A stretch of 64,000 bases of DNA from Polytrichum commune (lineage: Eukaryota; Streptophyta; Polytrichopsida; Polytrichales; Polytrichaceae), in the NCBI GenBank assembly GCA_950295325.1, contig OX485803.1:59599554-59663553 (forward strand). The letters run 5' to 3'. Shown here piece by piece: positions 127 through 15,419 of the stretch. Numbering within the stretch: the stretch's first letter is position 1; each line of letters starts with the position of its first letter. The notes beneath the pieces are model-generated. The model did no database searches and was not told where the DNA came from. It saw only the letters and a program-made list of their open reading frames with translations. The translations under genes and the position numbers were made by a program.

Positions 127-396
127 TCATTGAGTACGATTGGTGGAAGCACCAAGTACCGAAGATCCTCGACAGCGAGGACAACTCCACTGTCCAGATG
201 GTAGAGAAGTCAAGGGTGGCCGCAAGCATGCCATGTGCCAACCGCGTTGACACTGATCACACAAGAGCATAGTAGCCGCTCCCTTCTTCTCTCCACACAC
301 AAAACATGGAAAACCTTCTGGTACGACGGCCAGTTCAGGATGAACTGTACCCTCAATAGGTAGATGACATGGGGCACAGTTTTTGGAATGCTCGCA
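127..396 (-). pseudogene. PHD finger at the C-terminus of the retrotransposon integrase
   Basis: Reading past the TGA at 397-399 in the pol frame gives about 90 more residues before a final TGA at 127-129. They contain a Cys4-His-Cys3 pattern: CFVC, then CDQC about 12 residues on, then GWHMAC, then CPRC, with the Trp before the last CxxC that is typical of PHD fingers. The first Cys codon is at 304-306 and the last at 172-174. PHD fingers commonly bind the histone H3 tail. Many Ty3 elements instead carry a chromodomain here to steer integration, so a targeting role is a reasonable inference. All eight zinc ligands are intact although the frame upstream is broken. Confidence 0.8.
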
Positions 397-399
397 TCA

Positions 400-1122
400 T
401 TCCCTGCCATCCTTGCCTTCCAACAACAACAAACCACTCGGCAACATCTCCTTCACCCGAAGGATAGTGCGCCCCGCCTTGACATCCAATGTCGTAGGCG
501 CCTCACGTTGAAGATAAACATAATCCCCTTGCCGAAATCTCTGCAACTGAGGTCGGTAAGCACCACTACGAATGCGTGCATAACACAATGTGTCACGGTG
601 CTGAGCAATGGACAAATTCTCCATGGCCATAGGCATGACCCTCTGGAAGAATTGAGCCCGCTCCTGCAAACACTCTGCCCAAAGGTCTGGGTCATCCAAG
701 TTCACAACAGGAGCTAGTTTTTCCCGAATAGAACTCGGGAGTATAGGCTCACGTCTATACAATAATTGATACGGGCTGTAGGATGCCAGAGAGGCATGCC
801 TACTAAATCGATAGCCCATAGCAATCTAAGGCAACATAAGGTCCCAATCCCGGTGGCTTCCCCGAAGTAATCCATACTTCCTCAAGCCACGCTTGGTTGT
901 CTGAACAACTCGTTCAGCCAAGCCATCTGCCTCCGGATGATCCCGAGAGGTGGTACGGTGATCTATGAGCGCCTTAGTGCATAATTCCTCAAAAGCACCA
1001 AGGAACTCCCTCCCTTGGTCCGTCAACACCTCAGCCGGTGCTCCAAAACGTGCTAACACATGATCCAAAAAAGCGGCCGCGGCCAACTCTGCAGAGTTTT
1101 GGGGTAGAGCAACAAGCTCAAT
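400..1122 (-). pseudogene. integrase catalytic core and C-terminal part (broken by TAG at 826)
   Basis: This is the DDE integrase core of the Ty3-like element. The first catalytic Asp is in the SLDFAGP segment just upstream, near 1200. The second is in LTDQG (about 1020), and the Glu is in GLAERV (about 915). The SRDHPEADGLAERV stretch is highly characteristic of Ty3/gypsy integrases. The C-terminal part (825-400) contains QGDYVYLQ, the small beta-barrel region found in these proteins. A TAG at 826-828 splits it. Another TAG at 1123-1125 separates it from the zinc-binding N-terminus, at a position where relatives often have Trp. Confidence 0.85.
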
Positions 1123-1125
1123 CTA

Positions 1126-2232
1126 CTTGCTAAAATGCTCCACCATCACCAAAACGTACTTTACTCCACGTGACGTAACCACCAACGGCCCTGCAAAGTC
1201 CAGCGACCAACGGTAGCCCAATCCCATGATAGGTAAGGGCTGTAACTGAGGTGATAAGGTGTTAAAGCTAGACCTAACCCGGTCACAAACTTCACACCTC
1301 CCGACATAGGCAGCCACCTGCTGATACATGCCAGTCCACCAATATTGGCCACGCAACATCGAATGTGTCCTGCGTATGCCAAAGTGGCCAAGTTCCTCGT
1401 GCACTTGTCGCACCAAGGAGGCCCTCTGATCCGGCCTAGGAACAATATGCCTTGTCCCATCCGGCCACAATCGAAATAACAAACCGTTCTCCCAACAAAA
1501 CCTTGTTATTCGATGTCCAATCCTATCCCTTTCCATTGCCGAAATAGACAAAGGAAAGGTACCCTGTTGAAGCTTATGCAATACGGGAAGATCCTCCCAT
1601 ATATCCACAATAGCTTGAGGCCGATCAGTCTCATCATCCGAACCCTGTATCGGAATCCCAACAAATGCACCAGAAAATAAAGTGAGGTAGGCAGCCGCGT
1701 GCCAACCTGGAACCGCCTCTCGATCACAATCTCCATGCCATCTGGCCCCGGTCAAATCCTCATCTGAAGGACTTGGATTGCGTGAGAGTCCATCTGCATC
1801 TATGTTGGTAATCCCAGCACAGTGTACCACCTCAAAGTCATACTCCTGAAGCAATAAAGCCCACCTGGCAAGCTTGCCAGTAAGCTTATCCGACTCCATG
1901 AGCCACCGTAACGGTTGATGGTCAATCACTAAAGTAAAGTGCTGACCATAAAGATACGGCCGAAAATGGGCAATAGCCCATACCGCCGCCAATGCTTTTC
2001 CCTCGTAGGATGAATAATTAGCCTCCGCTGTGTTATTGCTTCGTGAAGCGTAAGCAACAACATACTCCCAACTAAAATCATCCTTCTGAGTGAAAATTGC
2101 TCCCAAATCCAATGAACTCCAATCTGTATGCAACTGGAAAGATTTGGAGACATCTGGACGTCGAAGCACTGGAGCCGTACCCAGGATCTGCTTCAATGTC
2201 TCAAACGCATGTTGTTGCTCACGACCCCAAGT
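1126..2232 (-). pseudogene. RNase H domain and integrase zinc-binding domain
   Basis: The first part is a Ty3-type RNase H: LHTDWSSLDLGAIF carries the first Asp, followed by YASRS and NYSSYEGKALAAVWA, then HQPLRWL and DADGLSR near its end. The integrase N-terminus follows, with an HHCC zinc site: HEELGHFGIRRTH, then CEVCDRV. After that comes WSLDFAGPLV, which carries the first catalytic Asp of the integrase core. The segment is open for 357 codons between the TGA at 2233 and the TAG at 1123. Its order places the element in Ty3/gypsy rather than Ty1/copia. Confidence 0.88.
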
Positions 2233-2235
2233 TCA

Positions 2236-3432
2236 CGGTTGGTCCTTGCTCGTGAGAATGGTGAGAGGCTTGGCGATCAAGCTAAAGTTCTTGACGAATC
2301 GCCGATAGCAATTCGCCAAGCCCAAGAAAGCACGAAGTCTCGGCACATCAACCGGTGCCGGAATCTTCTGCAAGGCGTCCACCTTAGCTTGTTGTACCCC
2401 AAGACCTCCTGGAACAATCATATGCCCTAGATATGCCAACCGGTCATGGAAAAACTTGCACTTGCCGTGATGCAAGCGCAATCCCCACCGCTGCAACCGC
2501 TCAAAAACGGCTTGAAGATGCCTTACGTGCTCATGTGGTGTTATACTGAAAATAATAACGTCATCAATGTAACACCGAGCAAAGGGTAAGCCAGAGAGAA
2601 CTTGGTCCATCACTCTCTGAAACTCCGCAGGTGCATTCTTCAAGCCAAACGGAAGAAACTTCCAATGGTAAAGTTGATCCTTCCCATCTTGATCAACTCC
2701 CCAGAATGCGGTTTTCATTCAGTCTCCCACAAGTAATGGGAGTTGGTGATAGCCGGATCTCAAGTCCAACGTGCTAAATACTCGAGCAAATCCGAGGGCA
2801 TCGAACAACTCCTCCGGGATTGGCATGGGATATCGATCCGACTTGGTCTTCCGATTAACTGGACGGTAATCCCCGCACATCCGCTTCTCTGTCCAATTGC
2901 CAAAGATATCATTTTTCGATGGCATAACCGTAGCACAAGCATACTCCCCGTTGGAAAGTTTGATTAGTCTTGCTGCCAAAAGCTCTCGGCAACGAACCTG
3001 AACGCCGCTCCGCTCGGAAACACTGAGCCTATAAGGTCTCCGAAAAATGGGATGGTCGTCCTCCAACTGAATGTGGATGGGTTTTCCTTTATAAACTTCA
3101 AAATCTTGAAGGCTAAAAGCAAAACACCTACGGTACGAGCGAATAAATGCTCGTACTTTCCGTGCCTCAGCACCAGTGAGATGAGGGCCTAATTCCAATG
3201 GCCAATCATCAAACTCTGTGGTCTCCCTCTCCACTAGAAGAGAGCCACCTAGTGTAGGCACGGACTCTAACTGCTAATGGGAGGAGGGGGCATTAACCAT
3301 GCCCCCAACTTCCGTGCTAGCAATAGAGTCCATCCCCTCTTCATCACCAACAATATGTGATGATGAAGCCACCACCGAAGGTGAAGAAGCCAAAGCAGTA
3401 TAAATCCGTTGAACTTGAAGCTCCTCCATCAC
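2236..3432 (-). pseudogene. Ty3-type reverse transcriptase (broken by stops at 2719 and 3274)
   Basis: Polymerase motifs are readable in order: RPYRLSVSE; NGEYACATVMPSKND; MCGDYRPVNRKT; FSTLDLRSGYHQ (motif A, catalytic Asp); FLPFGLKNAPAEFQ (motif B); and CYIDDVIIFS (motif C, catalytic Asp pair). The connection region has YLGHMI and FLGLANCYRRFV. A TGA at 2719-2721 falls between motifs A and B, in a position where relatives usually continue. A TAG at 3274-3276 lies in the linker between methyltransferase and reverse transcriptase. The enzyme would copy the element's RNA into DNA, but this copy cannot make it in one piece. Confidence 0.9.
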
Positions 3433-4929
3433 CTACTGCTCGAATCGACAGATTCGTTCGGCTTCTCCAACCATGACCTCAATTTCTTCCTCCATGGATG
3501 TGGACCATTGTGCCCCCTGACCAGAATCCTCTGTCCCCAGAGAGAACAACTGGTCACCATCATGCCGTTGCAATGCAAGGCATAAACCAACAGTCCACAC
3601 CATGGTATGAAGATCCATGGCTTGGCCCAACACGAAGCGTCGTTGGCCCTCAGAAAGGTTAGGAGCTGTGGTGGTGCCAGTGCGGAATCCCATGGCCCTC
3701 TCCCGTTCGTCAGCCAACGGTTCGGTGTGGATTTTGGTGTTAGCATCCCACACCATACCCGGCCCCCGATCGCGGAAGGCGAATGACTGTGGAAACGTCA
3801 TAAAGGTGGGAAAGGCCTTCCGTGGTGCCCCCCCTTTGTTGACCAATGCCAACGGGGGTAAACCATCTCGAACAACCGGCAAAGAGGTCCGGTTTGGATC
3901 CAAGATGTCATCCACCTTCTGATCCAAAGGTGGAGACACTGCAAAAAATGCTGCAGCTAAAGTAGATGACGGTGCGAGGTTGGTGCAAATCCACCGAGGC
4001 CGGTGGGCATAAGAACCAATGCTCGCAGCATCCACAAAAATGGGATCTCCAAGGTGTTGACGGACATAATGACCACCTTCCAACACCTTGTCCCGAGAGT
4101 CTCCCAACAAAGGTACATTCTCGAAGATATACCCTGGAGGGGAAGGTTGGTGGGTAAACCACCACTGCATAAGCCGGATGAGGTCCCAGAAAAGGCTAGA
4201 CCTGGGATCCTCTAAACCTCGGCCTGCTCCAGCACGTGAGTGGCCTTGGCATGGCCATCCCGCAATCACCATATCCACCGGGCCCAAGTGTCGTAAGTCG
4301 GCCTCACCGATGAGTGTAACATCACGAGGGAGACGTGAAAAACACCCACGAATGGCAGTTGGGTGTAACTGCTGGGGGTACAATACCATCAACTGGTGAA
4401 GATGGCGACGAGCCACACGGGTGGACACTGGAGAGTTGTCCACATAGACATACCGTTTGACCGTGAGGCCAGCCTCCAATACGGCTGCTAAGCCCGTGCC
4501 GATGCCCCCAAATAGTTCCACCAAAGTAATCCCCGCGTCTGGCGGCTGCCATAAAATAGGATGTGCCAATGCCGAGAGGACACCCGGTATGACCGGTGTC
4601 CTAGGAGTGAGAGAGTGAACAATATCCTCGCACCTCCGAAATAACTCGGCGGAATCACGCCAAGGAGGAAGGGGATCCTTGGGATGGCGCACCAATGCAC
4701 CCTTAGGTGCCATATCCCGTTGATCGTCTGTACTCCCCATGAATGCCAATGACTCCTCCAACAATGCGGAACCATAAGGCAATGTGTCCACCATAGCACC
4801 ACATCCAAAAACCATAGATAATGGTGTTGTGGTTGCGGCCGCCGCAAAAGTCACGGAAATAAGTTCCATGCGGCCATCCCCAGCCGACCAACCTGGTCGG
4901 ATCCACGCCTCCTCAGTCCAGTTATCCAA
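3433..4929 (-). CDS. cytosine-5 DNA methyltransferase domain carried by the retrotransposon
   Basis: This is an uninterrupted frame of about 498 codons. Conserved C5-methyltransferase motifs appear in linear order: motif I ELFGGIGTGL (about 138-147, AdoMet binding), motif IV WPCQGHS (about 225-231, catalytic Cys 227), motif VI FENVP (about 269-273), motif VIII as HRPRW (about 309-313), motif IX PLADERERAMGF (about 404-415), and a motif X-like LSEGQRRFVLGQAMD (about 425-439). Linear order excludes the rearranged plant DRM type. Motif I and its surroundings look nearer Dnmt3-like enzymes, but I cannot place the family firmly. The given start is the first in-frame TTG; the same frame is open back to a TGA near 5008, so the protein is probably made as part of the polyprotein. 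It ends at a TAG (3433-3435) in frame with the reverse transcriptase. Target sequence and activity are unknown. Confidence 0.9.
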   Translation of the reverse strand: MDNWTEEAWIRPGWSAGDGRMELISVTFAAAATTTPLSMVFGCGAMVDTLPYGSALLEESLAFMGSTDDQRDMAPKGALVRHPKDPLPPWRDSAELFRRCEDIVHSLTPRTPVIPGVLSALAHPILWQPPDAGITLVELFGGIGTGLAAVLEAGLTVKRYVYVDNSPVSTRVARRHLHQLMVLYPQQLHPTAIRGCFSRLPRDVTLIGEADLRHLGPVDMVIAGWPCQGHSRAGAGRGLEDPRSSLFWDLIRLMQWWFTHQPSPPGYIFENVPLLGDSRDKVLEGGHYVRQHLGDPIFVDAASIGSYAHRPRWICTNLAPSSTLAAAFFAVSPPLDQKVDDILDPNRTSLPVVRDGLPPLALVNKGGAPRKAFPTFMTFPQSFAFRDRGPGMVWDANTKIHTEPLADERERAMGFRTGTTTAPNLSEGQRRFVLGQAMDLHTMVWTVGLCLALQRHDGDQLFSLGTEDSGQGAQWSTSMEEEIEVMVGEAERICRFEQ

Positions 4930-5537
4930 ACCAAAATCAAGAGGGTAAAGTGCTTGCTGACCCGAGTAGCATTGCTCCCAGTGCGACTGACCACCAAAAT
5001 TCCAGTATCATTCACCATACGCACAACGCCGGGTCGAATGCCGCGGCGCTCGCGGATAGGTCTAGCAGCGACATCAGACAGATAGGCTGCACCCGCGGAT
5101 ACTGGTGAGTCATAAGACGTGGTCGGTGCCTTGTCATCTGAGGCATGTGCGTCAAAAGACGCAATGGTCTCTGCCGCAAGTCTCGCTTGCCGTTTGGCCA
5201 CATCCTCAGGATCTTCAGGAGCAGGGATGTCCGTAGTGGCTTGAGCCACGGTTAGAGAAGGTAAGGATGCCTTCCCTTCCAAAATCCTACCTGCTAAGTG
5301 AAAAACCTTAGCAGGTTGGAACTCAGGCGATGACCACTCCATGGCCGTGAACAAAGGTGTGTGCAATACCTTGGATGCCAACGTATGCGCCACATCGGTC
5401 GCTGAATGTGAAACTTCATCGTTCGGATGACGACCACTGATAAATTGGACGGCATCGGCCAATCCAAAAGATAATGGTAGTCGTGCCTGACCAATTTGGT
5501 CCGCAGGCGCATTGTCCCGAGCTCCCGAGATTGCCAC
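4851..5537 (-). CDS. unassigned ORF between gag and methyltransferase
   Basis: This 228-codon frame is in phase with gag and separated from it only by the TGA at 5568-5570. It lies where a protease would be expected, but I see no convincing DTGA or DSGA active site. The nearest candidate is NDTGILVVS near the C-terminus, which lacks the usual context. The last part overlaps the methyltransferase frame, which is one position back (-1) and reads QALYPLDFGLDNW there. The frame change could be a one-base deletion in this copy or a programmed -1 shift; the sequence alone does not decide. No function is assigned. Confidence 0.5.
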   Translation of the reverse strand: MAISGARDNAPADQIGQARLPLSFGLADAVQFISGRHPNDEVSHSATDVAHTLASKVLHTPLFTAMEWSSPEFQPAKVFHLAGRILEGKASLPSLTVAQATTDIPAPEDPEDVAKRQARLAAETIASFDAHASDDKAPTTSYDSPVSAGAAYLSDVAARPIRERRGIRPGVVRMVNDTGILVVSRTGSNATRVSKHFTLLILVWITGLRRRGSDQVGRLGMAAWNLFP

Positions 5538-5567
5538 ATATTCATTTGTGGTCGAAGATATGGATTG

Positions 5568-7130
5568 TCACATAGCTTGAGCACGTGTCACGGCCGCGGA
5601 ACTCACCACCTCGCCCGAGGCTCCGAACATATAGTAATCCGGAGTGAAAGAACTAGGCTGAGCTCCGAAGGAAGACGGTGAGGCCAAGATTTGGCCGGAT
5701 AACGCCAAGCTTTTGAACCTCTCCTCCATGGCTCCAATCTTCGCCTCCAACGTCTTCTTCCGGTCGGAAGAAGGACGTTTCTTAGGATGGAGAGCAAAGC
5801 AATTCTCTACCGCGTGATTGTTCTGCCCATAATGGGAACACTTCAACTGCTTGGGTAACTGATTACCCGTCGTCCCCTTCGCCGAGCCCTTAGCGGGAAC
5901 AAATGGTTTCCGCTTCGGAGTAGTGACGGTCTGGGCTTGCCTTTGCTTCGAAGGACAGTCTTTCTTAGCGTGGCCGGCCTGCCCACAACACCAACAATAT
6001 ATGGTCTTGTCCACCTCGGCCTCCGCCAATCCCGCAGCCGCAACCGGAACTCTTCGGGATTTGCTAGAATCTACTAGCAATGATACCAAATCAGTGGCAT
6101 CGTGTTGACAAAATGCACGATCACACTGCTCCACAATGGCGAATGCCTCTGCGAGTGTCGCCCGACCACCATAATCCATGATGATCCTGGGCAGCGCAAA
6201 GTCAAGGAGGCGTTTGTCAATCTTGGACAAAAACACCTTCACCAATTGACTTTCCGCAAACACACCTCCAGATTCTTTGGCAAACCTCGCCAACCTCGTA
6301 TACATGGTACGAGGTGTATCGTCCTTCTCCCGTCTAAAATCTTGTATCCGCTGCATCTGGTCCCGACGGAAACCTCCGTACTCCTCATGTAGATGCAGCT
6401 CAAATGCCCGCAACGGCTCAAAAACTGGCGGAACCCCCAAAGAGGCTAAAGCCGTCTGGGTAGCCTGGGCATAACGGGAGAGTGGAAGAATGGGGCTCGA
6501 CGTACTCGCCACAGCGGGAGCAGAACCCTTATCCTTGGGTTCACCAGGAGAAGCTCCCTCCATGTCCACCACAAATACTCCCTCCGGCACCTCCGATTTA
6601 ACCTCAGGGACGGCCATGAAACTGGAAGCTGCGCCTTCCTTCAATGCGGATACCAACTCAATCCGAGTCTCCCAGTACCGCTCCACCTGGCGCAGCTCCA
6701 TCCAATGAGCCTCCGTCCACTGCTCATAAGTTTGGAGAGCTTCATGCTCCAAATGCTGAGGCAGAAGCTCGAACGCATACCAATCGTTGAAATTGGTATT
6801 GCGTTGGCGTTTCTCTCGCATCCACGTACGAAACCGGATTTTCCAGTCTTGCAGAGAAATGGTCCATGCTCGACCGGAAAACCGGTCCCGTATCCCTCCC
6901 CTAGTCTCCTCTTCCATATCGTCAAAGATTCCCACCCACAGGACGTGAGACCGAGTGATAGTCCCCCACGCCGAAGTAGGCTGAAAAGCCTCGTTGGGTG
7001 CTACCACTGGTTCAACGTCCGAGAGGTCCGAGGAATGAGCTTCCGATGCTCCTGGGGACGGAGAACGATAGTGTTGAGTACGAGTTGTAACCATAAACCC
7101 ACATGAATTAGTATCCAGGTACAAAGACAA
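5568..7130 (-). CDS. gag: Gag polyprotein with zinc knuckle
   Basis: A 520-codon frame that would form the capsid and nucleocapsid of the Ty3-like element. The central region (roughly residues 225-340) has the usual retrotransposon Gag layout, including a Phe/Leu-rich stretch around FRRDQMQRIQDFRREK. A zinc knuckle CWCCGQAGHAKKDC (C-x2-C-x4-H-x4-C) follows near residues 380-395. A second knuckle-like site, CSHYGQNNHAVENC, has Tyr where the second Cys should be, which is explained by one G-to-A change. The ATG at 7130 follows about 400 bases without a long frame, which fits a leader. The frame ends at a TGA followed by CAA, and the same frame reopens after it. Confidence 0.82.
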   Translation of the reverse strand: MSLYLDTNSCGFMVTTRTQHYRSPSPGASEAHSSDLSDVEPVVAPNEAFQPTSAWGTITRSHVLWVGIFDDMEEETRGGIRDRFSGRAWTISLQDWKIRFRTWMREKRQRNTNFNDWYAFELLPQHLEHEALQTYEQWTEAHWMELRQVERYWETRIELVSALKEGAASSFMAVPEVKSEVPEGVFVVDMEGASPGEPKDKGSAPAVASTSSPILPLSRYAQATQTALASLGVPPVFEPLRAFELHLHEEYGGFRRDQMQRIQDFRREKDDTPRTMYTRLARFAKESGGVFAESQLVKVFLSKIDKRLLDFALPRIIMDYGGRATLAEAFAIVEQCDRAFCQHDATDLVSLLVDSSKSRRVPVAAAGLAEAEVDKTIYCWCCGQAGHAKKDCPSKQRQAQTVTTPKRKPFVPAKGSAKGTTGNQLPKQLKCSHYGQNNHAVENCFALHPKKRPSSDRKKTLEAKIGAMEERFKSLALSGQILASPSSFGAQPSSFTPDYYMFGASGEVVSSAAVTRAQAM

Positions 7131-7181
7131 AAAGGGTCAAAGGCAACCTGCACCTGCAACCACCACCAAAACTTATGGTAT

Positions 7182-7270
7182 GCTGGTCATTAACCCAGCC
7201 TCACCACAAGTGAAAACAAGCACCGCCCACTTGATGCACAAACAAAGGTCCCGTCGGTCATTAATCCGAC
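7182..7270 (-). promoter_or_regulatory. paired leader hairpins with conserved palindromic loop (candidate dimerisation/packaging signal)
   Basis: Two small perfect hairpins lie 52-88 and more bases upstream of gag. The first pairs GCTGG (7182-7186) with CCAGC (7195-7199) around the loop TCATTAAC. The second pairs GTCGG (7253-7257) with CCGAC (7266-7270) around TCATTAAT. Stems differ but the eight-base loop is nearly constant, and the second loop contains the self-complementary ATTAAT. Loops of this kind in retroelement leaders can form kissing contacts for RNA dimerisation; applying that here is inference. A related pair exists near 49.57-49.63 kb. Confidence 0.4.
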
Positions 7271-7399
7271 CTCACCTCCATAGTACCCTGTCACAATCTA
7301 GGACTATACAAAATGGGGCAGTGCTAGAACACCCCAGCACTACAGCCCGCCACATGGGAAGGTACCAAAACAAAATACAAGGAACAATGTAAAAACAAC

Positions 7400-8867
7400 A
7401 CTGGATCCTCCTCCCCAAAACAACACTTAAACAAAATTGAAAGCAACCGCGACCAACCGGCACCCGCCTGCGGTTGGTGGTCAAAAATCAAAGGCCATGT
7501 TGCTTAGGAAAAGAAATTGCATAAGCACATCTCTCATCTCCCCACTACCACCTAAAAATCCCTCCATACAAGAATGTCAAGAATATGTGTTGACAAACAC
7601 AATTCGACCCTAATAATAATTTATTTGGGGCCGAATAAAAAATTCATATGCCATTCAATCTTCAATGACACTCCCCTCGGAAATTTCGTACAACACAACC
7701 CCTAAAAAGAAATCTCAAGTATTTCTAATAGTTCATAAGAGCTTAGGTTTTCCTCCTTGTGTCCTTGATTAATGAGCCCAAAAAATCAACCTTTTAGAGA
7801 GAAAAGAAAAATTAGAAGTTGAAAGGAAACATAAACTATTTAATTTATTTATATTTAAATTAAATTAAATCCGGTTTTTAATTCATTAACGCATTGATGA
7901 ATTAAAACAAAAACAAAAACAAAAACAAAAACAAAAAAATAAACAACCAGTTGGACTTGCAAGCACTCAAAATCTTGGCTATCAAGCACTTAAGTCTGCA
8001 GGCAGCAGACAGCAGAAGCCTGCAGCCGCAGGAAGGTAAGCATTCGCAGGTCAGCAGACAGTCAGGGTTCAGCACACGCCGGTAGCCGCAAGTTGACGCC
8101 GACCGACGCCGTCAGCCGCAAACTGACGCCCGCAGCCACAGACAGTCTCCTGGCCAGGGGCCAAGGGCCGGCTGCAGAGGGAGGCAGGCTGCCTCCCTCT
8201 TCCAATTTTGTTTTTTTTTTTTTTGTTTTTTTTTTTTTGTCAAAAATTTGATCCCTATTGAGGATCAAGAATGCCTCCTTCACCTCCTACTTCACAAAAT
8301 CATGCTTGTAGGCAACTCATAACAAGCAATTCCGTGTAATATTGAGAAATTTCTCACCACAATTCAAAATGATGTGTAAACTTCACAAGCAACATTTTCT
8401 TCTTGTTGCTCCGCTAACCCGCGATGTTTTTCGTTCTCCACTCCGCAATCCCGCCACCACTTGTCCTCACACTCTTGCTTAAATGTTGTAGCTCAAGATT
8501 TGAAGAAAAAAGAAGGAATCAAGCATTCTTGCCAGGTGAGAAGGAAGAGAGTAGACTACTCATAAGAGCTCTAATTTCTCTCCAAATGCACACAACTAGT
8601 CAAGCTATCTCTCATTCCACCAAGGGAGAATCCAAAAGTGTAAGTAGGGGAAGAAGAACTCAAGATTTATTGCAAAATCATGCAATCTACACCTCACACA
8701 AGCTCTCTTCACACACTAACTCACAAGACTTGACTTGGCAAGAATGCCAAGCCAAGGAGGAGGCTCCTCACTTAGGAGCCTTCCTCTCCACATCTAGATT
8801 CATCCATCCAAATCTAGATGGATGAAACCCAATGGATAAGGTGCGGCCATCGATGCCGCATACCGTG
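7400..8867. other. AT-rich stretch likely holding the LTR of the Ty3-like element
   Basis: No gene is visible. The stretch includes an (AAAAAC)n run near 7906-7940, interrupted T runs at about 8208-8240, a segment of repeated GCAG-type words at 7990-8130, and a purine/pyrimidine-rich tract. It lies where the upstream LTR of the minus-strand element should be. A TGTGTTGACAAACACA inverted repeat near 7589 resembles a TGTGTTAATAAACACACA word near 50.92 kb. I could not establish LTR ends, because the second LTR is outside the window. The right limit is where non-LTR coding similarity begins. Confidence 0.35.
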
Positions 8868-8870
8868 ACA

Positions 8871-9700
8871 CACATGTATATACCATCACACGAAGAAGAC
8901 ATAGGATCCATACCGCTAATTAAACAAAACATAACACAACAACCATTGACCACCCAAACTATATACACATACTATGCAGAGACTTTAACATGGACATAGC
9001 CCTAATTGGAAAACAAAACGACTACATCACAACACCAACACAAGCAGAAGATACAGAATGGCGCACATTTACAGACAATCTACAACTTACATATATCCAA
9101 ACAAACAGCCTATACTCTAGACAAGGAGGCCAAAACTATAACCAAACCAACCTAATAGATGGATATTACATCAAAACACCCAATAACAACCTATACACAT
9201 CAACCATAAACAATGACCACAACCTCAACTCAGACCACTCCTCAGTAACACTACACATCCCACCAAATACACTACTAGCCCGCTGTCCACCACCAACTAC
9301 AGACAAACCCCCAAGGATCCTAAACCCCATCCCACAGATAAACATTGAAAAATTCAAAACATAATTCTTTGAAGAAAATGCACCACAGCTAAATGAACTC
9401 ACGAACACCCTTATACAAGACCAACTAACAAATGAACAATGGCAAACAACATGCACAAAATTTGACCATATCATACAAAAAATCTCCGACAACATCCAAG
9501 ATACATGCAGTGCACCACCTCTCCCAGACCTCACAAACCGTACATCACAACAAGGAGGCTTTCTACCAAGAAAACTCCAAAAGAAATGGAAAAACTATCT
9601 TTCCGCCTACCACCTAATTAGGAAAGCAATTTACTTGATAAAAAACGCACCAAATTGGCAAACACACCCCATAATCGAAGAACTAAGGAACCATACCCAA
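8871..9700 (+). pseudogene. AP-type endonuclease, C-terminal part, and linker
   Basis: Two frames carry the remains. 8871-8960 reads YIPSHEED and onwards. From about 8975 the frame changes to LCRDFNMDIALIG, the GDFN motif of AP-type endonucleases with Gly changed to Arg. NSDHSSVTL near 9230 is the SDH motif, which holds the last catalytic Asp-His. The N-terminal half is missing here, but a related fragment at 53.6-53.95 kb seems to cover it. A TAA at 9362-9364 and a C-run frameshift near 9710-9722 break the linker towards the reverse transcriptase. Confidence 0.72.
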
Positions 9701-10079
9701 ACCCCCATCCCACCCCCCCCCCCAATCAAGAACCTAATCAGCCTGAATGGATAGCAACACTAGCCCAAATCGCCAAAACCGCACATATACATGCCCGAAA
9801 AATTACCACAAAATACACCCAAGAATTCATTAAAAAAACCATATCCAAATACAGACTACTATACGACAAAAGCCCAAGAAAATCAACAAAAGAGTCTTCA
9901 CAAACCAAGAAACGCCCCCATTAGACTGCATTACAGATGTAAACAACAACGTACTTACAAACCCCACAGACATAGCCAATGAAATACACAACCAACAATC
10001 TATTAGCAATAGACCCACCGTACCAACATGCTACCACCATCCAGAACACACACCAAAGTGCACATGTGGTGTTAGACAA

Positions 10080-11000
10080 TACCCATGGCACGACCTAGAC
10101 GGATTTGTCATCGAAAAAAGAGGAAACTCTAAAGCTCCACTACATAAATACTTTGACAGAGTAACATACGATATGTGTTTAAAGAATCTAGCAAATAACA
10201 AAACACCCGGCCCCGACAAAATTCCCAACATAATCTTAAAAAACATGCCCGAAAGCTTCCACAACATACTTTTTTTATTATTCTCCCACTGTTACAGACG
10301 AAAATAAATACCAACTTCATAGAAAATAAGTCTAACAATATTACTATACAAAAAAGGAGATCCATCAAAATTAACAAACCACAGACCAATCGCACTTACA
10401 AACACAATATACAAATTCTTTACGAGCTCCCTTAAATCCATACTATCAGCATATGGAGAAAATACCAAATCCTCCACGACAGCCAAGAAGGATTCAGAGC
10501 AGAAAAAAACACATCCAGACAACTCCAACTCCTCATAGCAGCACTAGAAGACGCAAGATTTACAAACCAAGACATCTATCTACTATATATCGATTTCAAA
10601 AACGCATTCGGATCTCTTGGTCATGCACGACTATTAGCAGTTACTAAGGACTTAGGATATCCAAAAGATGCCGTGTCTTTGATAGGAAATATTTATTCAA
10701 ACTTCAATATCATATTTACAGGAGAACACTTCAGAAAAACAAACTCATACCAATACAAAGAGGCACAATACAAGGTGACACACTCAGTCCATACTTCTTC
10801 CTAATATTCTTAGAACCACTGCTACGTTGGCTACAACGAGGGAATAATGGGTACACATTCGGTACATCCAAAATAACGATCAGCTTTGCAGCATACGCAG
10901 ATGATCTAGCAGCCATAATCAATACAGATCCAATTACACAAACTAGACAAATACTGCGAATGGGCCGGAATGGACACGGGAGTTCCAAAATGCACCATCA
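10080..11000 (+). pseudogene. non-LTR reverse transcriptase (frameshifted)
   Basis: The fingers/palm start is readable as NNKTPGPDKIPN (about 10195-10230), followed by KKGDPSKLTNHRPIAL in another frame, LLYIDFKNAFGSL (motif A, about 10580-10617), GTIQGDTLSPYFF and the catalytic AYADDLAA (YADD at 10894-10905). At least four frame changes are needed to read these in order, so no functional enzyme is made. The KKGD...N.RPI and QGD..SP..F signatures are typical of LINE-type rather than LTR-type enzymes. Confidence 0.85.
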
Positions 11001-14000
11001 CGGCATGCCCAAACAAATCAAAAATAAAACCTGAAATATTCAAAACCAAAATCCAAGCCCAAAACATCCACTACAGAAACCAACCACTACCCGTCCTATA
11101 CCAAAATGAACCATACGTATATTTAGGCATACAATTAGTACCATCATTAAAATGGAAATTCCAAACACACATCACCACAACCAAAATGATAAACCAATGC
11201 AAACTACTAACAAACTGCCCAGCTACAATCAAACAAAAAATAAGTATGGTAGACACTGTCATAAGAGCCGGTATACCATATAGCTTTGATGCAGTCCCAT
11301 ACTCAATGCAAGCTATCAAAAAATTAGACAAAAAAATTATAAGAATCCAAAAAGTTATATGTGGTCTACCTAAATGTACAGCAATCATAATAACCCAACT
11401 ACCACACGACTTGTTTGAACTAGAAGCCTTCTCATTAAAAAATGCCTACCTAAGATGTATTAGCGAATAACTCAGAAATGCACTTAATGATCCCGGCAGA
11501 CTTGGCATAATCTACAAAGGACTTATACAACATATTCTTGCAAAATATAGAGGCGCAGAAGACATACAAAGAATCAAATACCACGACTGCATAAGATCAC
11601 CTACAACACGAACACTATTTCTTATTAAAAGAGAAGGAGAAGCTCACCTCAAAAGCATAGAAACAAATTTCCAGCTCCATGCAACTAAACTTGAAACAGA
11701 ATGGAAATCCCAGGCCACAATCGTACTACCACAACTAAACAAAGAACTATCTCTTAAACTACTATATAAACTCCTAACACTAAACATACAAAAAATAAAA
11801 CGTATTTCCCTTCCCAATGGCACACACTTAATGTCACCAACAGACTTTCAAACCTACTATAAAACCCCGACAAAACTAATAAAAAATGCACTACACATAG
11901 CAGAACAACTTTTCTGCCAACAAAATTGTAACCAAAACTGTCCAATCCAATGTAATAGACACCTACAAGCCCGCACACTCCAAGAAAAATACATATCAGA
12001 TAATAGAGAATTACTACCCAGAATCTTGGACAACCCCTTACACCCGCCACCAACACAACAACCCCAACAACCAAACCCACCCCCCAACATAATAAATAAC
12101 CCAATCAAATTCCCCATATACAACATACTAAATCACAAAGCAAACATAACGAAAGACAAATATAAAATAACAAAAAAATTTAACACATACCTATGCCAAT
12201 GGTCACTCCAAAACAACGCGACATACTACAAGTGGATATCACAAAAAGAACTATTCCCACCAAACCATCCCTCAGTAATCGAACACAACATAAACCTACT
12301 AAAAGAATATTATACAAGACAACAACACAACCACTACAACAAACTAATTCATACACATATAACCCCCATACAAACCAAAGACCCAAGATTCATACCACCA
12401 CCTACAATAACACCACACACCCAAATATCAATAATAGAATGCAACCCAGAAAGAGACATTAATACAACGAAACATACTATACAAATACAAAACGAAATAA
12501 CACACATATACGAAGACATAGGAAGATATCTCATAACCATCCCAACCACCAAACTAAATTGGCTATGGCAGCAATACAACAAAGACACCTACAGGACATA
12601 CGGCCTAATACCACCCCCACAACCATTCGAAACTGAGGTAGTCTGGCTATACCAAAGATATAACTCTAAAATACCAAAAAAAAATCCACTTAAAACATCT
12701 CCATACACTCTCCCACATAACCTCCTTGACTCCATTACAAAAGCATTTAACATTTCACACTCCTACTTCTCTTCACCAATAACATGCTCTACACATATTA
12801 CAAAATATTTCTCACCATTCACAAGAGATAAAAATTTTGGATCATTAGGCACCGCTTTCCAATACAAATGGCACGGAATTGGCTATGCCCACCCACAAAA
12901 CGAAGAAATGACTCAACAAGCAATACATTGGGCACGCCTAGCAGCCAGAAATGACCCAGATACCGTCACACTAATAGTCACACCAGACACAAATTGGTAC
13001 CAAAACTACTTACTACATACAGGACCGTTCCCAGACACACATGTCCTAGCCCATTTCGCCGCAGATACCATTACATACGACGTACCAACAAACCCTCAAA
13101 ACCTCAATAAACCACAAATAGAACCATTAGCAATACATATACTCTGCATCCACCACCAACACAATAATTTTGGCACTCCCAATCAAATAGACACAATCAA
13201 AACAACAATAGAAAACCTACAAATAGCACAATACCATATACAAACAACCCCACCCACACCAAACAATACACCCGTAAACAAAAACACTAAATGGAACAAA
13301 CTACTCTACCCACCACATAATAACCCATCAATTACACCCATACCACCAATACCAAACTACGAAATCCAACACACATTAAAATTCCTACCACAATATAGCT
13401 ATTACACCGACGGTTCATTTATCCCACCCATGAAAGCTAATGACGGGCACTGGAAGAAAGAAAAAGCTGGATATGGTATCTATAACCCAACGAAAATAGA
13501 CATACGTATATCAAAAAGACTGCCCGGCCTAGAAACCAACTTTAGAGCCGAATTAATGGCCATACACAAAACCCTCAAAATAATCACAACCAAATACCCG
13601 AACGAACCTGCACACATATTTAAAAACTGTCTAAACTGCCTATATGTAATCAACACACGAATAAAACACCCAACTCATCATAATAACCATGCTGACAAAA
13701 TCATACTGACATCTATGGTTGAAATGTTAAAAAACCAAACACAACCCACTACGATATATAAAGTAAAAACACACATAAACATTGACGGAAATGAACAAGC
13801 TGACCAACTTGCAAAGCAAGGCACTAAAAAACAATATAGATTTGTTGCCAAAACATATGAATTTGCATATACCACACCATACTACTTCCAAAAAAACACA
13901 TGGTCGGGACCCAACAAAAGACCTGACAAAGGCCCAGTCCGATACCTTGAAACATACCTCACTAAACACGATAGAGATAACAACCTAAAAAGATTGGCAA

Positions 14001-14155
14001 TACAATTCCCCAACATTAACAAATGGACAACAAACCCAGACATAGACAACGAAATATCTAATCACTTCTGGTCCAACCCCATAATAACAGATTCACAAAA
14101 GACTAGTATCCTAAAATTCCGTACCGGACAAAATATGGGTAACACTAGAAAATAA
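10970..14155 (+). pseudogene. LINE C-terminal linker and RNase H domain
   Basis: One frame runs from 10970 to 14155, interrupted only by a TAA at 11468-11470. The first part includes YVYLGIQL, the thumb-like segment after the polymerase. The RNase H domain starts at YYTDGSF (about 13400) with the first Asp, has RAELMAIHK (about 13545) with the Glu, and ends with GNEQADQLAKQG (about 13790) containing the last Asp. The expected second Asp seems replaced in the KNCLNCLYVIN segment, where relatives usually have TD, consistent with a G-to-A change. About 450 residues between polymerase and RNase H remain unexplained. Confidence 0.8.
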
Positions 14156-14857
14156 CTATTCTTTGGCAGAGAAAGATTCCCATCCATAACATGCCCAATC
14201 TGTAACTCACCAGATGAAGACACATGACTACACATACTATTAAAATGCAACCAACATCACATACACGCCCTCAGAACCAAACGACATAACAAAGCAGTAT
14301 GGGAATTAAGAAAACTAATCCTATCATCACAAAAGTCAGGATGCTACACCCTCATGAACGCAGGAACATTTAACAACAACCCACAAGAAAATACAGTCCC
14401 AACATGGCTTCTAAGATATACATGTACACAACAAAGATGCCACTGCAACGCTAGACTCAAACCTGACCTTCTATGTATAAAAGAACTCCCGCACCAAAGC
14501 ACCCCACCACCACACCCAACCAACAACCTAACGGTACAATTCATCGAATTTACATACACTAATGATAGATTCTCACAAGATACAATCAACAACAAAATCC
14601 AAAAATACCAACCATTAATTAACGACATCACCCAACAAGGATGGAAAGTAGACCCACTTATAGTCATAACAGCAGGAGCTAGAGGAACCACGCACATCCC
14701 ATCAATGAAACAACTTGAACAAACATTTAAAATCCCCGAAAATAATGTTAAAAATACATTCAAAGCAATAAACACTATTGCCATACAAATCGCTAGCTCA
14801 ATCCTCCTACACAAGAGACGTATAGAAAACAATCAAGTAATCCCCACAGAATAAATG
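14156..14857 (+). pseudogene. zinc knuckle and PD-(D/E)XK-like nuclease domain at the LINE C-terminus
   Basis: In the same frame after the TAA at 14153, CPICNSP and then LHILLKCNQHHIH give a CCHC-like knuckle interrupted by a TGA near 14225. The 166-codon frame from 14354 follows, with KPDLL (PD at about residues 37-38), FIEFTY (Glu at about 65) and NKIQKY (Lys at about 81-84). This spacing matches the PD...(D/E)xT...K arrangement of restriction-like endonucleases in R2-type and Dualen-type elements. Assignment is by pattern only. With the AP-type domain upstream, the ancestor may have carried two endonucleases. Confidence 0.6.
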
Positions 14858-14879
14858 AGCCAAGACAAAGAAAACAAAT

Positions 14880-15225
14880 AAAGACATAAATAGCGGTTTT
14901 TGCAAAAAACATACTCAGAGGTAAAATGTTTTTACATAAATAGCCGTTTTTACAAAAAAACATACTCAGAGGTAAAACGTTTTTACATAAATAGTGGTTT
15001 TTGCAAAAAACATACTTAGAGGTAAAATGTTTTACATAAATAGCGGTTTTTGCAAAAAACATACTTAGAGGTAAAATGTTTTTACATAAATAGCAGTTTT
15101 TGCAAAAAACATACTTAGAGGTAAAATATTTTACATAAATAGCGGTTTTTGCAAAAAAAATACTTAGAGGTAAAACATTTTTACATAAATAGCGGTTTTT
15201 GCAAAAAAACATACTTAGAGGTAAT
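14880..15225 (+). repeat. seven tandem copies of a ~50-bp unit at the LINE 3' end
   Basis: Copies of ATAAATAG begin near 14886, 14937, 14987, 15036, 15086, 15135 and 15186. Each unit holds a near-palindrome, GTTTTTGCAAAAAAC, followed by CATACT(C/T)AGAGGTAAAA. Differences between units are single bases and one- to two-base indels in A or T runs. The array starts 26 bases after the final LINE stop codon, so it may be the element's 3' untranslated tail. It opens a long antisense frame that is only a by-product of the repeat. Confidence 0.9.
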
Positions 15226-15419
15226 TTACAACAGATTACAAAAGCAAAAAAACAGTAATGGAGTAGACACAAGAGCAAAAGATGCGAAGGCAAATATCAC
15301 AATAATGAGGTTGAAGAGGCATGTTCCACCCAACCCTAGGGCTTATATACTACATACAACTATGAGTCAAGACTCCTTTCAACTGGTAGTTCCAAATATC
15401 TTAACCATAGTGGTTTAAA

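Follow-up and report, generated by a model that had tools for sequence, protein, structure and literature searches.

A moss family of Ty3/gypsy-type retrotransposons with split direct repeats and a DNMT3-class cytosine-5 DNA methyltransferase on the Gag side of a conserved stop codon

When DNA methylation silences a transposon, this is usually regarded as an act of the host against the element. Here we describe a family of retrotransposons in the moss Polytrichum commune that encodes a cytosine-5 DNA methyltransferase (MTase) of its own, starting from a Ty3/gypsy-type copy of 9,134 nt on the minus strand of a 64 kb stretch of contig OX485803.1 (positions 59,599,554 to 59,663,553; this whole stretch is called the window, and bare coordinates refer to it). 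Among the elements with which the family can be compared, chromoviruses are Ty3/gypsy elements with an integrase-linked chromodomain, DIRS-type retrotransposons have a tyrosine recombinase and leave no target-site duplication (TSD), and in some known retroelements ribosomes read through a stop codon that lies between gag and pol.

The closest described systems come from algae and dinoflagellates. KnitGypsy-Dnmt3 of Klebsormidium nitens combines DIRS-like repeats with Gypsy-like domains, and de novo CpG methylation in yeast has been shown for the enzymes of SymbioDIRS-Dnmt3 (de Mendoza et al. 2018, PMC5890265, cited here and below for the accessible part of its text); DNMT3 members in streptophyte and dinoflagellate retrotransposons are also mentioned, citing the 2018 work, in the accessible part of PMC12344493. 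The moss family resembles KnitGypsy-Dnmt3 in its Gypsy domains, its non-rearranged DNMT3-class MTase, its DIRS-like repeats and the purifying selection on the enzyme (PMC5890265), and the likeness covers the layout of the ends apart from the 4-bp TSDs of the moss family. The two differ in their hosts, an alga on one side and, on the other, a land plant whose genome yields at least 83 close MTase rows, and in the place of the enzyme, which is described as inside the Pol open reading frame (ORF) in Klebsormidium, whereas in the moss it lies on the gag-protease side of a leaky-type stop (PMC5890265). A term search of the accessible main text of that paper returned neither PHD nor Gag. SymbioDIRS-Dnmt3 and SymbioLINE-Dnmt of Symbiodinium are likewise retrotransposons bearing a cytosine-5 MTase, and the former shares with the moss family both the DNMT3 class and the split repeats, but these elements use a tyrosine recombinase or the endonuclease of a long interspersed element (LINE) where the moss family has a DDE integrase (PMC5890265). 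As in chromoviruses, a chromatin-reading domain ends the integrase ORF; unlike them, the moss family encodes an MTase, closes that ORF with a PHD finger instead of a chromodomain, and has split repeats where chromoviruses have long terminal repeats (LTRs). MTase-bearing retrotransposons being already known, what is new here is the land-plant host, the position of the MTase on the Gag side of a leaky-type stop, and the PHD finger. In literature searches, none of the titles and displayed abstracts described MTase-bearing retrotransposons from mosses or liverworts, most subscription papers, preprints and supplements being out of reach.

The methyltransferase and its place in the family

The MTase reading of the window copy (3433-5007) is open over 524 codons and scores 45.9 bits against PF00145 (cut-off 22). 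Homology to its relatives starts at residue 15 (about 4965), and the domain proper covers roughly residues 150-490 (about 4560-3540). The preliminary description, which had placed a Ty3-like retrotransposon with its own cytosine-5 MTase at 3433..4929, was therefore right in substance and essentially right in the span. Motifs I (VELFGGIGTGLAAV), IV (AGWPCQG), VI (FENVP) and VIII (SIGSYAHRPR) and a C-terminal block (ERERAMGF...LGQAMDL) are all present, in an order from I to X that is not rearranged, unlike that of DRM: motif I lies near residue 160, PCQ at 252-254, EN at 296-297, and both ERERAMGF and LGQAMD beyond residue 430. Neither the catalytic C253 nor Q254 varies across the 36 rows of alignment A1, which holds the window enzyme and 35 of 63 protein matches. 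A profile of this alignment found its best PDB matches in DNMT3A/B/C (E 1e-21 to 1e-26), followed by DRM (1e-9 to 1e-11, including the tobacco-type 4onj/4onq), HhaI (about 1e-8) and DNMT2-type enzymes (1e-5), with no DNMT1 in the 52 matches at E 1e-3 or better; the NCBIfam match was to the broad dcm superfamily only, under its cut-off. To judge from these comparisons, the element enzyme is of the DNMT3 class.

In the genome (407.8 Mb in 64 contigs, seven of them of 42-78 Mb, a number that would agree with n = 7 in Polytrichaceae), the PF00145 profile recognized at least 123 places over its cut-off (123 of 352 candidates having been scored), not all of which were traced to an element. The rows retrieved with the window MTase were 78-100% identical to it (82 of 761 candidates scored), and ORF2 of copy L011, which contains the reverse transcriptase (RT), matched at least 44 places (44 of 3,879 candidates scored, distant RT relatives lying outside this set). 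The MTase is a regular part of the element family, and dozens of copies share a single gene order. It was carried by 39 of the 42 close RT copies examined (the two further places being C7:28457590 and C3:30064163), and no MTase-free close relative was seen among these 42. At 22 of the 44 places a PF00145 match, compared by eye, stood at the expected distance, and at 20 others, read for 1.4 kb upstream, the MTase was found over its whole length in 17, two of them in two pieces. The remaining three (L044, L045 and L047) matched ORF1 of L011 at its 3' part or less, with nothing further upstream within the 1.4 kb, and are therefore truncated or interrupted.

Nine copies in the PF00145 listing have an ORF1 of 1386 codons, and in each of them gag, protease and MTase form a single ORF; their ORF2 comprises 1047 codons with RT and PHD finger in six and is broken in three. 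L029, of the window's subfamily, presents an ORF1 of 1372 codons and an ORF2 that, over the two pieces read, contains no stop up to and including the PHD finger, and L030 an ORF1 of 1366 codons with an ORF2 open for 452; in all, open ORF1 was found in two subfamilies. The same two ORFs recur in L009, with an MTase identity of 62%, an ORF1 that runs off the end of the contig and, once more, an ORF2 of 1047 codons; this contig, binned as Synechococcales, is probably a eukaryotic contaminant. The Pfam set of L011 consists of PF00145, PF13650 (the protease, 22.8 bits, below the cut-off of 24.3), PF00078 (E 1.2e-30), PF17917, PF17921, PF00665 (E 1.4e-13) and PF00628, and the PDB matches of its PHD finger include CHD4, PHF12, PHF21A, Lid/KDM5, ATXR5 and UHRF1.

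That a single element had by chance captured a piece of a host methyltransferase gene, an explanation with which the defective state of the window copy would agree, can thus be discounted almost entirely: a one-off host capture is ruled out by the other MTase-bearing copies in the genome, dozens of copies from two subfamilies, and L009 as well, show the same gene order, and in proteins from other sources the MTase is joined to protease, RT or integrase. The preliminary description had asked for other copies with the same gene order and had named a domain captured only here as the outcome that would speak against it; the copies were found by the dozen, and the MTase is family-wide.

Selection was examined through the ratio of non-synonymous to synonymous changes (dN/dS). 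Between L029 and L030 it was 0.19 for the MTase (dS 0.23, unsaturated), 0.08 for gag, 0.05 for RT, 0.33 for the linker, 0.53 for the protease and 0.67 for the C-tail. For the MTase of L029 it was 0.12 with L009 (dS 2.4) and 0.16 with L011 (dS 1.8), while in the comparisons of L029 with L011 and L009 it was 0.05 each time for RT and, respectively, 0.03 and 0.02 for integrase. The ORF2 values of the pair L011/L025 and of the pairs with L031 were left out as frame artefacts, and, since ORF2 of L030 is open for 452 codons only, just its RT was used. Across the L029 pairs these values indicate that the MTase is under purifying selection, with a constraint weaker than that on RT and integrase.

The MTase had been described as lying between gag and RT and sharing the pol frame. 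The readings and the Pfam matches confirm the former; as for the latter, the reading frame is indeed the same, but a conserved TAG intervenes, and intact copies have a gag-protease-MTase ORF. This stop divides gag-protease-MTase from RT-RNase H-integrase-PHD. In 22 of the 22 copies read (L001-L008, the nine 1386-codon copies, L029-L031, L009 and the window copy), TAG after ORF1 is followed by CAA TCA, CAA CCA, CAA TTA or CAG TTA, that is, by STOP-CAR-YYA with variation restricted to the degenerate positions, and the nine letters are still kept in decayed copies such as L031, in which an upstream frameshift puts the stop out of the MTase frame. We take STOP-CAR-YYA to be a leaky context of the tobacco mosaic virus type. 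With such a context after it, the yield of MTase would be comparable to that of Gag and would exceed that of RT-integrase. The moss family is in this like the readthrough retroelements, which have TAG with CAR-YYA between the Gag part and RT, and unlike them in that protease and MTase are also upstream of the stop; readthrough itself is a prediction.

Element ends, class and descent

Full copies have the layout A-coding-B-GC-A-B, corresponding to split direct repeats, which we saw in seven of nine fetched 1386-codon copies and in L029. Repeat A starts with TGTCACG and measures about 440 nt in most 1386-codon copies, more in L017 and, by estimate, about 330 nt in the window's subfamily; repeat B has 107 nt in L016 and ends with TTACACGACA. 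The junction GACA-GC-TGTC was identical in 10 of 10 junctions, including those of L031, L029/L052 (window's subfamily) and L009, the search pattern leaving room for 0-6 nt between the two repeats. The outer ends are TG...CA, and an exact 4-bp TSD was present in all 11 copies with two ends read, that of the window included. The two copies of repeat A within one element were 98.8-99.8% identical in seven copies, which points to recent insertion. L011, L013 and the window copy consist of A-coding-B alone, without terminal redundancy, yet have a 4-bp TSD. Recombination between two B copies, or integration of a single unit, would give this form, which for lack of terminal redundancy should be unable to remake a full template.

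Ordinary LTRs were considered and rejected, because the blastn pairs (about 400-570 nt) consist of repeat A, which runs into different sequence at its two positions, and because there is also a second repeat, B. A search of L015 and L027 for a primer-binding site disclosed no iMet-like 12-mer at three mismatches or fewer. In L009 (6635-8290), repeat A continues into leader-like sequence and not into B; this may reflect a circular or tandem form, or short-read misassembly.

The assignment to Ty3/gypsy rests on Pfam domains and pairwise identities. L011 displays the order protease-RT-RNase H-integrase with a DDE integrase (PF13650 being sub-cut-off), and the TSD is short and of integrase type (4 bp), but LTRs of the same kind are not found at both ends. 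With DIRS the family shares the split direct repeats, but the Pfam matches of L011 include no recombinase, and an integrase and a 4-bp TSD are present. A template restoring the ends has been proposed for DIRS. By analogy, the palindromic B-GC-A junction, which resembles joined element ends, would be the template restoring both ends here, the DDE integrase replacing the tyrosine recombinase.

Searches that each scored about 8,000 candidates retrieved at least 63 relatives at E 1e-3 and, with the family profile, at least 321 at E 1e-8 (best 120 of 321 listed). Named relatives among the matches listed are from Klebsormidium nitens (P0097, 290 aa), Closterium (P0047, P0068, P0074, P0084 and P0106), the liverwort Calypogeia fissa (P0015 and P0085) and Sphagnum compactum (P0124, a 205-aa fragment). 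The preliminary description had seen in a land-plant copy an extension of the Klebsormidium case, and the moss family and P0097 are indeed linked by sequence, P0097 being retrieved by the family profile and placed in the MTase tree. Protease and MTase stand in one protein, the MTase after the protease, in P0009, P0046, P0085 and P0106, so that P0085 is a liverwort protein with both; stop-free MTase-RT fusions were found in P0042 (near the Sphagnum fragment P0124) and in P0068 and P0074 of Closterium. In the Ty3-like proteins P0045 and P0089 the MTase is beside integrase or RNase H and not after protease, which is a second position and perhaps a second uptake.

In a tree of 41 MTase rows, the window and L011 enzymes were separated by L009, P0001, P0003 and P0005, and the two moss subfamilies thus probably parted before those elements did. 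The Klebsormidium and Closterium groups each received 100/100, and P0015 and P0085, although of one liverwort, fell in different groups. With one outgroup row, a DNMT3A fragment on a very long branch, the tree is no test of a single clade and carries a long-branch warning. The MTase proteins P0055 and P0057 are on a long branch, and P0057 shows, by eye, protease-like sequence upstream of the MTase. Between lineages, identity is 29-39% for the MTase and 41-50% for RT, both falling roughly in parallel.

These data bear on whether the moss and Klebsormidium elements acquired DNMT3 independently, their likeness being convergence, which we regard as possible but rather unlikely. The Klebsormidium uptake is called independent and lineage-specific in PMC5890265, the identities across lineages are as low as stated, and P0045 and P0089 carry their MTase elsewhere. 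Against this, the MTases of the Klebsormidium, Closterium, Calypogeia, Sphagnum and moss elements retrieve one another by sequence, the MTase follows the protease wherever one protein shows both (e.g. P0009, P0046, P0085 and P0106), and the odd split-repeat layout is common to the moss and Klebsormidium elements (PMC5890265). The moss family suggests, as far as sequence comparison goes, a single old streptophyte lineage and not a Klebsormidium oddity.

The window copy and its surroundings

The window copy (Table 1) has its left end at 8870 and its right end 264 nt outside the window, and it is inserted into a LINE, with TGTG as TSD at both ends. Its damage includes a TGA at 5568-5570, the loss of the protease active-site stretch, a frameshift upstream of the MTase, a TAG at 3433-3435 that lies 53 codons ahead of the conserved stop, and more stops in RT and integrase. 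The copy is thus defective, with its MTase domain still open. Its gag reading matched PF00098 with an E of 0.079, under the Pfam cut-off, and has its counterpart in ORF1 of L011 and L029.

Table 1. Parts of the window copy, in the order in which the element is read (positions of the window).
Feature	Positions	Strand	Remarks
4-bp TSD TGTG, left end	8871..8874	-	directly precedes TGTCACGG; partner outside the window (locus L010), directly after TTTACACGATA
Repeat A, left copy	8540..8870	-	starts TGTCACGG; inner end (about 8540) estimated by analogy with L031 and L052
Untranslated leader, repeat A to gag	7137..8539	-	85% alike over 430 nt to the upstream part of L029; no primer-binding site found
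gag reading, 522 codons	5568..7136	-	CCHC zinc-knuckle-like motif, residues 380-396
Linker and start of protease region	4851..5567	-	active-site stretch (DSGAQP in relatives) absent here; compared with L029
Cytosine-5 DNA MTase, DNMT3 class by sequence, non-rearranged, catalytic PCQ	3433..4965	-	
Conserved stop TAG + CAG TTA (STOP-CAR-YYA)	3268..3276 (TAG 3274-3276)	-	
RT, N-terminal part	2719..3273	-	stop at 2719-2721; PF00078 E 0.093 for the piece
RT, C-terminal part, YIDD	2233..2718	-	PF00078 E 1.3e-22
RNase H and integrase zinc-binding domain	1123..2232	-	PF17917 E 7.8e-33, PF17921 E 7e-18
Integrase core and C-terminal part, readings broken	397..1122	-	counterpart whole in L011, PF00665 E 1.4e-13
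PHD finger closing the integrase ORF	172..306	-	by sequence; counterpart in ORF2 of L011, PF00628 E 2.4e-10

Scans of the window for tRNA and Rfam families gave no match, and a search of the viral collection found no relative. The LINE that hosts the element occupies 8924-14854 on the plus strand (ORF 11471-14155), its left part being in L010. It contains a PCIF1-like domain (PF12237, 37.7 bits, cut-off 31.1; residues 384-506) upstream of RNase H. The catalytic motif of PCIF1 is NPPF, opposite which a weak PDB alignment (E 0.0092) places HPQN of the LINE; the domain is cap-methyltransferase-like and probably inactive in this copy. A reading in the left part of the LINE (L010:7857-9470, plus strand) contains GDIETNPGP, a 2A-like ribosome-skipping motif, and a tandem array of 49-51-bp units lies just past the LINE (14844-15241). 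At about 33.8-38.3 kb there is a GCFC/ILP1-like host gene, read as four hand-joined readings and searched with residues 470-900; among the best 120 of 251 matches, identity was 78% with Ceratodon purpureus, 74% with Sphagnum, 62% with Marchantia, 60% with Calypogeia, at most 62% with vascular plants, and 75% with one further protein. By these figures the host is a true moss, distinct from both Ceratodon and Sphagnum.

Possible roles of the enzyme

We favour, with moderate confidence, the explanation that this is a moss split-repeat Ty3/gypsy family with a selected DNMT3-class MTase in a Gag-protease-MTase polyprotein, an enzyme that would methylate the element's own new DNA. The sequences themselves establish the gene order, the multiplicity of copies, the purifying selection, the conservation of the stop context, the arrangement of the repeats and the 4-bp TSDs. 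By analogy with known families, most ribosomes would stop at UAG and yield Gag-protease-MTase, a minority would read through and add RT-RNase H-integrase-PHD, and the protease would free the MTase inside the particle. The enzyme would then methylate cytosines, most likely in CpG, of newly made element DNA around reverse transcription or integration, so that new copies would arrive already methylated and resemble the methylated host DNA around them, and the PHD finger might help the integrase to choose chromatin. The parts of this explanation deserve different degrees of belief. It is likely that intact copies encode a catalytically competent DNA methyltransferase; that the enzyme acts mainly on the element's own DNA we judge to be evenly balanced, and concealment from a host sensing of unmethylated DNA can be proposed only tentatively as the benefit. 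A wider reading, which we find doubtful, is that of a very old streptophyte-wide lineage (Klebsormidium, Closterium, liverwort, Sphagnum and moss) whose DNMT3-class writer and, in the moss family, PHD reader would amount to an epigenetic camouflage predating land plants. There, a writer made at Gag level (through the leaky stop in the moss) and a PHD reader of the type that binds H3 tails would cause copies to be born methylated and placed in matching silent chromatin.

Several results weigh against the favoured explanation. The KnitGypsy-Dnmt3 enzyme gave no methylation in the yeast assay, a result that its authors call inconclusive (PMC5890265). Of the 17 whole-length MTases read upstream of RT, 16 showed the PCQ motif; in L035 it was not found. 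When the stop codon alone was read in 20 further copies, it was TAG in 19 and TAA in L051, and the fold 3' of the stop was better than that of shuffled sequences in one of three copies (z -0.52 in L029, -0.51 in L015 and -3.41 in L009). Pairs of young copies gave MTase dN/dS values of 0.36, 0.63 and 0.83, which are uninformative by themselves. Finally, the observed/expected CpG ratio showed no depletion, being 0.67-0.71 in the coding part of nine copies as compared with 0.61 for the window's LINE and 0.46 for the remainder of the window; since CpG is higher, and not lower, in the coding part of the element, no mutational footprint of heavy self-methylation is visible. The proposal of the preliminary description that the element may mark its own DNA, perhaps as protection or concealment from the host, thus draws no support from CpG content.

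A rival explanation is that the MTase acts in trans, perturbing or restraining host methylation, or silencing rival transposons and surplus family members (self-limitation). De novo action on many sites is established for enzymes of the DNMT3 class, expression at Gag level would yield much enzyme, and slowed retrotransposition is discussed as an option in PMC5890265; however, purifying selection within the element is more readily explained by a benefit in cis, and we hold action in trans to be unlikely. A role other than on DNA, be it binding or methylation of the element RNA or a structural part in the Gag polyprotein, appears more improbable still. The location of the MTase in the Gag-protease part and the RNA methylation suggested for LINE-borne enzymes (PMC5890265) would fit such a role, but the nearest profile is DNMT3 and not DNMT2, and the catalytic C and Q do not vary in A1.

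Self-methylation of new element DNA, by an enzyme made at Gag level and packaged alongside, remains the reading that we prefer. Elements of this sort are known from algae, and land plants had been reported to lack them; the moss family contradicts this for mosses, and the absence is also contradicted by the liverwort protein P0085 and by the Sphagnum fragment P0124, close to the MTase-RT fusion P0042. Since mosses can be cultured, the role of an element-borne MTase is directly testable in a plant. In this case it is a land-plant element family that itself carries the methylating enzyme, which is under purifying selection and, should the stop context work as expected, would reach Gag-like amounts.

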